From the NCBI GenBank assembly GCA_938036345.1, contig CALHPJ010000002.1:1-64000 (forward strand): a DNA stretch of 64,000 nt, written 5' to 3'. This DNA comes from an uncultured Thermofilaceae archaeon. Its GTDB lineage: Archaea; Thermoproteota; Thermoprotei; Thermofilales; Thermofilaceae. A model generated the notes under the pieces. That model was given only the letters and a program-made list of their open reading frames with translations. It searched no databases and was not told the origin of the DNA. Positions 6,465 through 10,230 of this stretch are shown here, one piece after another; within the stretch, counting starts at the first letter, position 1, and each line of letters opens with the position of its first letter. The translations under genes were made by a program, and so were the position numbers.

Positions 6465-6836
6465 CTAACGGCTTTCCTTAATGGAGTAGATGCCGAAAAC
6501 CAACAGCTTTCCTCCGCACTTGGGGCACATCCCTTTCTCCTTAAGCACGTAATCACTCGGCTCCACGTTTTTCTCTTCGGCGTAGCTGCAGCTCTCGCAC
6601 TTGAGAAGTTCCACGACGCGCATCCTAGTTACCCTTATTCTCCTCAGCCTATTCAGGCCCGTGAACGCGAGGTACACCCCCATGGCTGAGAGGACCGCTA
6701 GGTTGGCGTAAGCCGCGTCACCTGTGTGAACATACATAATCAGCATGTGAACCGCTACGAGCGCTAAGGCGACGATCAGGACTAAGTACACGGGCATCCA
6801 GCGCGACTTCAGCTCGGCCAGCTTCTCCTCGCTCAT
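6465..6836 (-). CDS. Small membrane protein with cytoplasmic zinc ribbon
   Basis: A 123-aa protein of unknown function. Two hydrophobic helices (about residues 15-36 and 42-62) are followed by a basic loop (RLRRIRVTRMR) and a C-terminal four-cysteine zinc ribbon (CESC near 80, CPKC near 104). The positive-inside rule places the ribbon in the cytoplasm. Similar small proteins with a membrane hairpin and a zinc ribbon are common in Thermoproteota but none is characterised that I can name. It is 15 bp downstream of the YjbQ-fold gene pair, so it may be the last gene of that operon. Confidence 0.75.
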   Translation of the reverse strand: MSEEKLAELKSRWMPVYLVLIVALALVAVHMLIMYVHTGDAAYANLAVLSAMGVYLAFTGLNRLRRIRVTRMRVVELLKCESCSYAEEKNVEPSDYVLKEKGMCPKCGGKLLVFGIYSIKESR

Positions 6837-6851
6837 GGGACCGGAAGTCCT

Positions 6852-7274
6852 TTAGATGCCGCTATTAATATCTGCTGAGGCTGTAATCAAGGACGCCACG
6901 ATCCTCCTTCGCCTCCTCGAAGCAGGCTGATTCTCCAGGAAGAAGATACCCGCCCCCTCCAGGGGTATGCTACCCTCGATCACGGGTAAAGCTAGCATCG
7001 TGCCGATGAGGGTAGAGCGCAGGTGCGCGTACGCGTTCCCTGGATGCCTCCAGCCCAACGTGGGTACTAAATCCCACAGATTATGCTCGAAAGCCTCCGC
7101 GAGTTCGCGCCTCCTGGGCAGCAGTACAAGCGCGCCGGTTGAGCCTACCGCTTGCAGAGCTAGTATGCCCAGCTTAACGCCCTTTGCCATCTCTTCCACC
7201 CTGTCCGTTATGTCGAACAGCTTGTTTGGCCCGTACGTGGTCAGCTCTATGCTCCCCAGGCGGGCGACCTTCAC
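6852..7274 (-). CDS. YjbQ/UPF0047-fold protein, histidine-motif copy
   Basis: A 140-aa member of the YjbQ (UPF0047) family, some members of which show weak thiamine-phosphate synthase activity. It keeps the family's central motif (HPGNAYAHL, then GTMLALPVIEG), which carries the metal/active-site histidines. The upstream HTTAAL region reads VGSTGAL and the downstream LGTWQ motif reads EGAGIFF. Its GTG start overlaps the stop of the upstream YjbQ-fold gene by 4 bases (GTGA), implying translational coupling. The partner has the opposite pattern of retained motifs, so the two probably form one hetero-oligomer. Function is unknown. Confidence 0.78.
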   Translation of the reverse strand: MKVARLGSIELTTYGPNKLFDITDRVEEMAKGVKLGILALQAVGSTGALVLLPRRRELAEAFEHNLWDLVPTLGWRHPGNAYAHLRSTLIGTMLALPVIEGSIPLEGAGIFFLENQPASRRRRRIVASLITASADINSGI

Positions 7275-7627
7275 TGCACCACCTCCACTATAAGCTTCCG
7301 GACTCCCTCTCTCTCGTTGAGGTCCAAAAGGCAGATCTGCTGGAACGAGCCCAAGAGCAGCCCTTTCTCTACAGGTATTACCAGGCTGGGCTGGAAGACG
7401 GAGGCGATGACGTAGGGATCCTTAACCTTCCAGCTGCTCACCAGGGCTAACAAGTCCTCTATCAAATCGGGGTCGTACTCGATCGTGATAAGGCGGACGA
7501 GGGGGTCCACCGAGTAAAGCAACACCGCTCCGCTTTCGAGACCGGCCGATTTAACCACTTTCTCCACGTACGGGGTTAAGTCGTAAACCCCCCTTCCGGC
7601 GCTCTGTATCTTTATCTCGGCGATCAC
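7271..7627 (-). CDS. YjbQ/UPF0047-fold protein, divergent partner copy
   Basis: About 118 aa. The C-terminal half fits the YjbQ family (PSLVIPVEKG, LLLGSFQQICLLDL), keeping the LGxxQ segment. The histidine-containing NAHAHL motif is replaced by YVIASVF, so this chain alone probably lacks activity. The GTG at 7627 is chosen because box A (7649-7655, minus-sense AAAAATA) lies 25 bp upstream and homology begins just after it; the open frame extends to 7765 without family similarity. The roughly 225 bp between this start and the GH5 stop shows no gene. It is coupled to the next gene by a GTGA overlap. Confidence 0.72.
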   Translation of the reverse strand: MIAEIKIQSAGRGVYDLTPYVEKVVKSAGLESGAVLLYSVDPLVRLITIEYDPDLIEDLLALVSSWKVKDPYVIASVFQPSLVIPVEKGLLLGSFQQICLLDLNEREGVRKLIVEVVQ

Positions 7628-7852
7628 GCTGGTGCCGGTGCATCCCAGTATTTTTGCATTGCTGCCCGATGCGCAGCGCACTGGCTGCTTCGGAGGCAGG
7701 CCACTGGAGACCATACCGGCAGCCCACGCGAGGGCTCGGACTGCTGTCCCCAGCAGGGGTTTCAATTACGGTGAACCCGTAAACAGGTTTATCTATTCCG
7801 TTGAGAAAGCTTGCATTGAATGCTATCGGAGAGGGCTTCCCAACATCTGGTG

Positions 7853-9223
7853 CTAAGCGGTTCTTCCTACCCGCCTCCCCCTTGAAAGCAGCACAGATGC
7901 GAGGATTAGAAGGATGCCGACTACCCCCACTATGATAAGGGGTAGGAGGGCTTCCAGGTAGTCGAGCCTCCAAACAGCTTTGAGGGATCTGGGGGCGTTG
8001 ACGTAGACCTCCATGGTTCCAGCGCCTACAACCCTATCCATTTCGTTAAGACCCTCGAAATGGTCAAAGACGTAGGGGCCTACCTTGGTTGGGCTGACGG
8101 ATACTCGAGCGTAAGTGCCTTCCCAGTAAAGGCCCTCCCCGGCGGCAGCACCATATTCTGTGTCCACGGTAACAAGGTACATTCTTCGATTCCCCGGGAG
8201 TAGAGCCTCCAGCAGCTCTGTTCTCCATCTCCCCCGAAACTGGTCGTAGACGCCGAAACCAGCTGCGAACTCCCAGTAGCACCAGGCTATCCCCCTTTTC
8301 TCGGCCTCTCTGGCTACGAAGTAGGTCCACCTGACGCGGGATTCCATGTCCGCCTTGCTGTACGCTCCAAACTCACCCATAAACAGGGGGACGCCGCCGT
8401 GCTTCTCAGCCCAGCTTGCAGCAGTGTCGAGCTCCCTTGCTACCTCCAGCTGCTCTGCGCGCGTGCCGTACCATTTCACACCGACCCGCGGGCTTGGGCT
8501 AACCCACTCGGCCCCTTGGTGGGTGAATTCAAAGGGCGTGTAGAAGTGGAATGTCACAACGATGTTTTCGTCGCCATCGTGAAGCTGGAGTTGCTGGAGA
8601 GCGTAGGCGCTGTTCCAATTAACTGGACCGACGATTATTTTCCGAGTCGGGTTCGTCGCACGTATAACAGCTATGGTTTCGCGCGCCAGCTGGTTCCACA
8701 GGTCGGCAGTCAGCTTGCCGTGGGGCTCGTTTAAAAGCTCGAAGATCAGCTTCTCCGGGTAGTGCCTATACCTGGTGGAAATCTGCTGCCAGATAGCTAT
8801 GAAGCGCTCCCTGTGCTCCAGGGGGTTCTGCATAATCTCCTCGTAATGGTGGACATTGATGATAACGTAAAGTCCCTGCTCTAAAGCCTTGTTGACCACG
8901 TGATCGACTCGCTGGAAAAACCTTTCGTCGATTGTGTAAGGCGGATCGTTACTGGCGTGCGCGCTCCAGCGTATCGGTATTCTAACAGCCTCGAAGCCTG
9001 CCTCCTTTATAATTTTGAAAAACTCGTCCCTAATGTAGACTCCCCACTGCCCCTCCACCGGGGCCTCAAGCGCATTACCGATGTTGATGCACTTGCAGAA
9101 AGGCAGCTTTGCTGAGCAGCCTCCTTGACTCAAGCCGCCAGGCGGCTGAGACAAAGATAACGGTATAAGGGTCAACGCGCATGCAAGCATCAACGCCACC
9201 TTTCTAAGTTTGCGAGGAGGCAT
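7853..9223 (-). CDS. Secreted, membrane-anchored GH5 glycoside hydrolase (endoglucanase-like)
   Basis: A 456-aa protein. Residues 1-25 form a signal peptide (basic start, then LMLACALTLIPLSLS). The GH5 barrel spans about 40-345: INVHHY at about 123-128, acid/base Glu166 in LLNEPHG, HFYTP at 226-230, nucleophile Glu284 in FMGEFGAY, and a substrate-stacking Trp in WCYWEF. A beta-sandwich-like region follows, and a C-terminal transmembrane helix (about 424-446) with a basic tail anchors it outside the cell. It should hydrolyse beta-1,4-glucan or mannan; the exact polymer is uncertain. Box A lies about 26 bp before the ATG. The GH116 glucosidase in this window could finish the released oligosaccharides. 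Confidence 0.9.
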   Translation of the reverse strand: MPPRKLRKVALMLACALTLIPLSLSQPPGGLSQGGCSAKLPFCKCINIGNALEAPVEGQWGVYIRDEFFKIIKEAGFEAVRIPIRWSAHASNDPPYTIDERFFQRVDHVVNKALEQGLYVIINVHHYEEIMQNPLEHRERFIAIWQQISTRYRHYPEKLIFELLNEPHGKLTADLWNQLARETIAVIRATNPTRKIIVGPVNWNSAYALQQLQLHDGDENIVVTFHFYTPFEFTHQGAEWVSPSPRVGVKWYGTRAEQLEVARELDTAASWAEKHGGVPLFMGEFGAYSKADMESRVRWTYFVAREAEKRGIAWCYWEFAAGFGVYDQFRGRWRTELLEALLPGNRRMYLVTVDTEYGAAAGEGLYWEGTYARVSVSPTKVGPYVFDHFEGLNEMDRVVGAGTMEVYVNAPRSLKAVWRLDYLEALLPLIIVGVVGILLILASVLLSRGRRVGRTA

Positions 9224-9279
9224 GAATCTAAGAAGCGTGCAGGAGTAAAAAGGCTTTTCCTAACCGCGCGGAACGCCAC

Positions 9280-10230
9280 CCACTACCATTAGCCTTCGAG
9301 CGCGCGAGCCGCCACAGCTCGCTGAGCGACTCGTAGAAGGAGCCCGGTTACAGCTCCCCAAGCCCCCCACGCTAAGCACTAGGTGCAGACGTATATCCAG
9401 GCAGAGGTGGCAATGGCTTACATACCCGCTGCGCAACTCTCTGTACCCGTATCCCTCGACCGCCAACCGGTACAGCGAGCCCAGGTCCCTAGATAGCGCT
9501 GCTAGGACCGGTCTATCACTCAGGTCAACCCCCTTAGTACGTGGTTCGGCATCTGAGCATCTCCTAAGCTTATCCCGGCGAGCACCCTGGGACATAGTTG
9601 CAGTGAGGGTCTACGTGTACGTGCCATGGCCTTGCGAGCCCCCCAGGCAAGACATGTTAAAATAGGCTTTAGCGGGCTCCTCTCGTAAAGGTAGCCCAAC
9701 GTGTAGACTAGGCGACCCATCGGCAGCAGGATTGAGGGGTTAAAGGCCAGCTTGAAAAGCGGGGGAGCTACCTTAATGGCCCTGCCAGCCATCTCTTCGA
9801 GACTAATCTTGCCGGAAGACCCCACCGATTCTAGCAGCTCCAGGTAAACCGGGTGGTAGACGAACATCCCTCCCTCGTCCACTACATCGAACGCCGCTCT
9901 GATAGCGAGCTTCGCCCTGCTGTATGGGACAAACTTCGTTGTGAAGGGGTTTACGCTGATGAGAACCCCCAGGCCGGCTCCTTTCAGCTCTTCGAATCTG
10001 CTTTTAGCGCCAGTGTAGCTCGTAACCCAGAAGCAGTTGGTTTCGACGAAGACCGACGGTAGCCGAGTTCTTCGGCAATCTTTACGCTCTCCAATGTCAA
10101 GCAGTATTGCCCTCAGCGTGCGGGCGTACACGCAGTGCTTGCACTCGCAGATGCACTGGTAGGAGAGCATAATGCCCACAGAGGTCGGAGGTTCTGCTCT
10201 GAGCACCCAGCGTTCGTCATTGTCTACCAA
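9280..10230 (-). pseudogene. Decayed radical SAM/SPASM-type gene
   Basis: Pieces of one radical SAM protein read in three frames. The first frame (TTG at 10230) has the CxxxCxxC cluster motif (CICECKHC), then after a loss of roughly 50 residues, including the expected GGEPF segment, FVETNCFW and ISVNPFTTKFVP. Near 9560 the reading shifts to a frame with VDLSDRPVLAAL and the SPASM cysteines GYVSHCHLCLDIRLHL (about 9400). Near 9360 it shifts again, hits a TAA at 9348-9350 and continues as PGSFYESLSELW. A box A remains upstream of the TTG, so the 5' end may still be transcribed. Multiple lesions argue against a single sequencing error. Confidence 0.8.

Follow-up and report, generated by a model that had tools for sequence, protein, structure and literature searches.

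A two-gene form of YjbQ with a probable split inter-subunit site in hyperthermophilic Thermoproteota

Two overlapping genes of an uncultured Thermofilaceae archaeon encode YjbQ-fold chains, here called A and B, that divide between them the residues otherwise invariant in a single YjbQ protein. We judge it probable, at roughly three in four, that A and B form an obligate hetero-oligomer whose working site would be present only at the A–B interface; both the assembly and the composite site are predictions. It is also likely that this two-gene YjbQ represents a split inter-subunit site that was fixed once and retained as an overlapping unit across hyperthermophilic Thermoproteota, here comprising Thermofilales relatives and Desulfurococcales-type lineages. 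Judged from the sequences, the hetero-oligomer idea is well supported by comparative genomics, and its structural side is what we infer.

The pair lies on the reverse strand of the window, which is the whole 64,000-nucleotide stretch analyzed (contig CALHPJ010000002.1). The coupling of the two genes through a GTGA, as described in the original prediction, is present at the B–A junction (Table 1). An A/T-rich box upstream of B, picked out by eye, would be weakly consistent with a leaderless transcript whose 5' end is at, or close to, the GTG. Both proteins exceed the Pfam cut-off of 27 bits for UPF0047/YjbQ (PF01894), with 49.3 bits for A and 40.4 bits for B, yet both fall below the 67.75-bit cut-off of TIGR00149, the NCBI equivalog model for secondary thiamine-phosphate synthase YjbQ (40.1 and 32.9 bits, versus 142.4 bits for the canonical copy in the same genome). 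The canonical conserved set (HxT, NE, D, H..N..H, and GTWQ) is not united in either chain. In its own numbering, A retains T46, W75, H77, N80, H84, E114, and R123, and the equivalents of Glu58, Asp66, and GTWQ are gone; B retains Glu50 (equivalent to E58), Asp58 (equivalent to D66), and GSFQQ, and its two-histidine loop is gone.

Table 1. Features of the two-gene YjbQ locus (positions within the window)
Feature	Position	Strand	Remarks
Gene B, YjbQ-fold subunit	7271..7627	-	GTG start, 118 aa
Gene A, YjbQ-fold subunit	6852..7274	-	GTG start, 140 aa
GTGA shared by the B stop and the A start	7271..7274	-	
Gene A GSTGAL; single-gene YjbQ has HATAAI in the alignment	7128..7145	-	T46 invariant
Gene A histidine motif WRHPGNAYAHL, residues 75-85	7020..7052	-	
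Gene A ENQ	6927..6935	-	E114 invariant; ETR in 13 Desulfurococcales-side pairs
Gene B ITIEYD	7472..7489	-	Glu50 invariant (30/30)
Gene B GSFQQ, aligned to GTWQ; within LLLGSFQQI	7337..7351	-	
A/T-rich TATA-box-like box	7648..7655	-	21-28 nt upstream of B start; by eye

The assignment of both genes to the YjbQ fold, made initially from the sequence, is upheld by structure prediction as well as by the Pfam scores. AlphaFold models of the single chains reached a pLDDT of 91.9 and a pTM of 0.86 for A, and 95.8 and 0.87 for B. The 17 best PDB matches of each model were all YjbQ proteins, with TM scores of 0.74-0.91 normalized by query length, and several PDB YjbQ entries have a chain count of 3 or 6. 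Compared with the solved members of YjbQ/UPF0047 (PF01894, TIGR00149; 1VPH, 1VE0, 1VMJ, and 2P6C), A and B share the fold, the length, and, taken together, most motifs; the difference is that motifs found there in one chain are here divided over two overlapping genes.

We surveyed the distribution of the pair at increasing phylogenetic breadth. Searching the source genome and 60 relatives (61 genomes) with Pfam revealed 17 with two extra, divergent YjbQ genes adjoining each other, and profiles of A and B run over 81 genomes of the class returned the same 17. Extending the B profile to the phylum added 13 genomes with shorter B-like genes, each followed by an A-like gene that overlaps it. Once the alignments had been enlarged, the 29 of 398 phylum genomes with an A-type gene proved identical to those with a B-type gene; another genome, G007, provides a 30th pair beyond these. 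Pair members were separated in score from all other matches (149 versus 93 bits for A, 124 versus 99 bits for B). The 30 pairs span nine families and include Ignisphaera aggregans (PMC3035270), Staphylothermus hellenicus (PMC3236042), and S. marinus (PMC3035234), along with Thermofilum and metagenome-assembled genomes of Thermofilaceae and Thermoprotei.

Gene order is equally constant: B lies upstream of A in 30/30 pairs and always overlaps it, by 4 nt in 14 pairs and by 8-38 nt in the others, depending on the start chosen. Both genes together, in the same order and overlapping, is the pattern expected of the proposed hetero-oligomer and is seen in 30/30 genomes. Relatives with only one of the genes had been named as evidence against such a complex, and our search of the 398 phylum genomes and G007 for a lone A-type or B-type gene found none, every genome with either gene carrying both. 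Within g6, a genus of the same family, the pair is present in one genome (G014) and missing from four complete or near-complete ones (G005, G008, G010, and G012), a patchiness that reflects repeated loss or transfer; the function of the pair is dispensable in the complete genomes without A and B.

The residues divided between the two chains were examined at 21 reference columns, each with a constancy of 90% or more among 56 single-gene homologues. All 30 copies of A keep T51, H83, N89, H93, E124, and R132, with P76 also kept (28-30 of 30), and A has lost E58, L63, D66, and GTWQ. All 30 copies of B keep E58, L63, D66, G115, and an aromatic residue (F/W) at W117, and B has lost T51, H83, N89, and H93, with most of the loop that carries them deleted. 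The original description, in which A keeps the HPGNAYAHL histidine motif and lacks LGTWQ while B keeps LLLGSFQQI and lacks the histidine motif, was accurate and holds across the 30-copy alignment. Since Glu58 and Asp66 are also kept by B and are missing from A, the split is wider than the two motifs first named. G41 and P106, kept in both chains, look structural.

The division is not perfectly clean. At Q118, B has Gln in 17 copies and Lys in 13; 28 of 30 copies of B have Asp at E124, a conservative change, so that this position is not clearly lost there; and D126, invariant in single-gene YjbQ, is gone from both chains. Given these three departures, a composite site would be no exact copy of the parental one. 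The first histidine of HxT is also gone from both, replaced by Gly in 30/30 copies of A and by D/E/S/N in B. Because this position is likewise Gly in 16 single-gene relatives of the GST type, the histidine was probably absent before the split. Scored over the 21 columns as a bare count that ignores place, complementarity is not significant: A keeps nine, B keeps six, and both keep two, where 2.6 would be expected if the sets were independent (P=0.48). What makes the complementarity telling is instead the 30/30 constancy, against mean pairwise identities among the 30 copies of 41% for A and 35% for B, and the spatial placement of the residues.

That placement follows from the strands. Strand b4 is immediately preceded by T51 and closes with E58, seven residues further along, and in the next-to-last strand Q118 comes first and E124 last, so that the A-kept residues fall at one end of both strands and the B-kept residues at the opposite end. 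Residues six to seven apart in an extended strand are separated by about 20 Angstrom, and the two sets therefore cannot form one site within a single chain. For the parent protein this leaves two arrangements, one in which the sets came together between neighboring subunits and one with two distinct sites. Duplicated homomers are known to give rise to obligate heteromers in which each copy keeps part of a site, and A and B would have taken the same route as such paralogous heteromers with sites shared by unlike subunits. The ancestor, probably a GST/TIEYE-type protein encoded by a single gene, would have been a homo-oligomeric YjbQ in which the end bearing Thr51, His83, Asn89, His93, and Glu124 met a neighbor's end bearing Glu58, Asp66, and Gly-Trp-Gln. 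After gene duplication, the first of these ends may have survived in A alone and the second in B alone, leaving a working site only where A meets B. A ring could be a trimer of A and B, in which one site would be complete, or an A3B3 hexamer, and a larger alternating A/B assembly could hold three sites; the pair would presumably keep the parent's reaction. Of the original proposal of an obligate hetero-oligomer with composite sites, the strict pairing of the genes is borne out by co-occurrence, the shared sites are favored by strand geometry, and the complex itself stays at the level of prediction.

The main rival to a composite site is a partition of two separate sites. Here, A and B would still form a hetero-oligomer, with the active site wholly in A and B acting as a structural or regulatory partner. 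This reading supposes that the parent had two sites at opposite ends of its subunit, for example a catalytic His/Asn site and a second binding or contact surface. A pair of sites would account for the opposite-end placement just as well as a shared one does, and any obligate complex would explain the co-occurrence and overlap. Nevertheless, both residue sets are invariant in 56/56 single-gene homologues, which is more than a purely structural patch predicts, and A has lost conserved Glu58 and GTWQ as well, leading us to regard the two-site arrangement as unlikely. In the 13 Desulfurococcales-side pairs, Lys at Q118 of B accompanies a one-residue-shorter WxHGNAYAHL and ETR in place of ENQ in A, and because these correlated changes fall on one branch, they amount to a single joint event that is only suggestive of contact.

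Two further readings do without a complex. If A and B were separate proteins, each forming its own homo-oligomer with a changed function and merely co-transcribed, one could account for the confident prediction of each chain folded alone and for the many clade-specific invariant residues in both. We nonetheless consider this improbable, as neither gene stands alone in any of the 398 genomes, order and overlap persist in nine families despite differing surroundings, and roughly half of the residues conserved in the family are missing from each chain. That the pair consists of decaying duplicates without function might be suspected from their low scores against the curated YjbQ model, but the reading frames are intact, and residues stay invariant in 30/30 copies across nine families at 35-41% mean identity; residue conservation already contradicts decay, to which we give almost no credence.

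The family phylogeny suggested as a check on the pair was carried out with 99 proteins, and A and B each formed one clade (support 100/99 and 100/97, respectively). B and the GST type are sisters (98/82), A branches next with weaker support (91/83), and the canonical HTT type lies outside. The distance matrices of A and B are correlated (r=0.84, with 0 of 2,000 permutations as high) and show a similar main division, a correlation to which shared descent alone would contribute. GST-type proteins (e.g., L088 and L102) carry all motifs in one chain, as GSTAA..TIEYEPGL..HDGNGHSHVRAS..GTWQQ, and also HDGNGHSH; they have GST in common with A and TIEYE/GxxQQ in common with B, and are the likely parent type of the pair. 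Among the 398 genomes, GST-type YjbQ occurs in 71 and the pair in 29, with no genome containing both. The naive chance of this zero overlap is 0.003, and as related genomes are not independent, it does no more than hint at the pair taking the place of the GST type. The HTT-type YjbQ of the source genome (L001, G000:C1:34754-35098), on another contig, belongs to the same Pfam family and has complete canonical motifs; its presence in a genome that also has the pair indicates that A and B are no replacement for it. A third single-gene type (L100 and L105-L109) forms its own clade and is marked by HATG..HPSNAHSHLRS..GTWQS with a short loop before the second histidine. Sub-threshold A-like matches (G030, G033:C155, and G123) proved to be of this third type rather than lone A genes.

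YjbQ proteins are widespread in bacteria and archaea, and many structures have been solved. Our literature search turned up neither a consensus on the family's function nor a mapped active site; it yielded nothing useful on quaternary structure or active site and no description of a split or heteromeric YjbQ. A weak thiamin-phosphate synthase activity of E. coli YjbQ is credited to Morett et al. (2008) in passages of PMC3091646 and PMC11551756; the same search found no other activity reported for the family. In this setting, the pair is a natural experiment in which the invariant residues of YjbQ have been sorted into two groups, one per chain. The sorting predicts which YjbQ residues cooperate from opposite sides of a subunit interface, and the pair offers a direct route to locating the YjbQ site and testing its chemistry one half at a time.

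The gene neighborhood gave no better lead to function than the reported thiamin-phosphate synthase activity. Any one neighboring gene was shared by at most two of the nine families, leaving A and B alone as the conserved unit. In the source family, a zinc-ribbon membrane protein gene and an AMP-phosphorylase-like gene follow the pair; neither does so in the other families. The first of these (6465-6836, reverse strand) encodes a small protein with two hydrophobic stretches, a zinc-ribbon-like CxxC...CPxC tail, and no Pfam match; at least four Thermofilaceae-side loci have this gene following the pair. Upstream of the pair is a glycoside hydrolase family 5 (cellulase) gene (7853-9223, reverse strand) with a signal-like N-terminus and a membrane-anchor-like C-terminus. 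Beyond it, a radical-SAM-like gene (9260-10230, reverse strand) appears to be split into two overlapping frames of 236 and 111 amino acids, which match the N- and C-terminal parts of an intact 355-amino-acid gene in L040; the cause would be a frameshift or a sequencing error.
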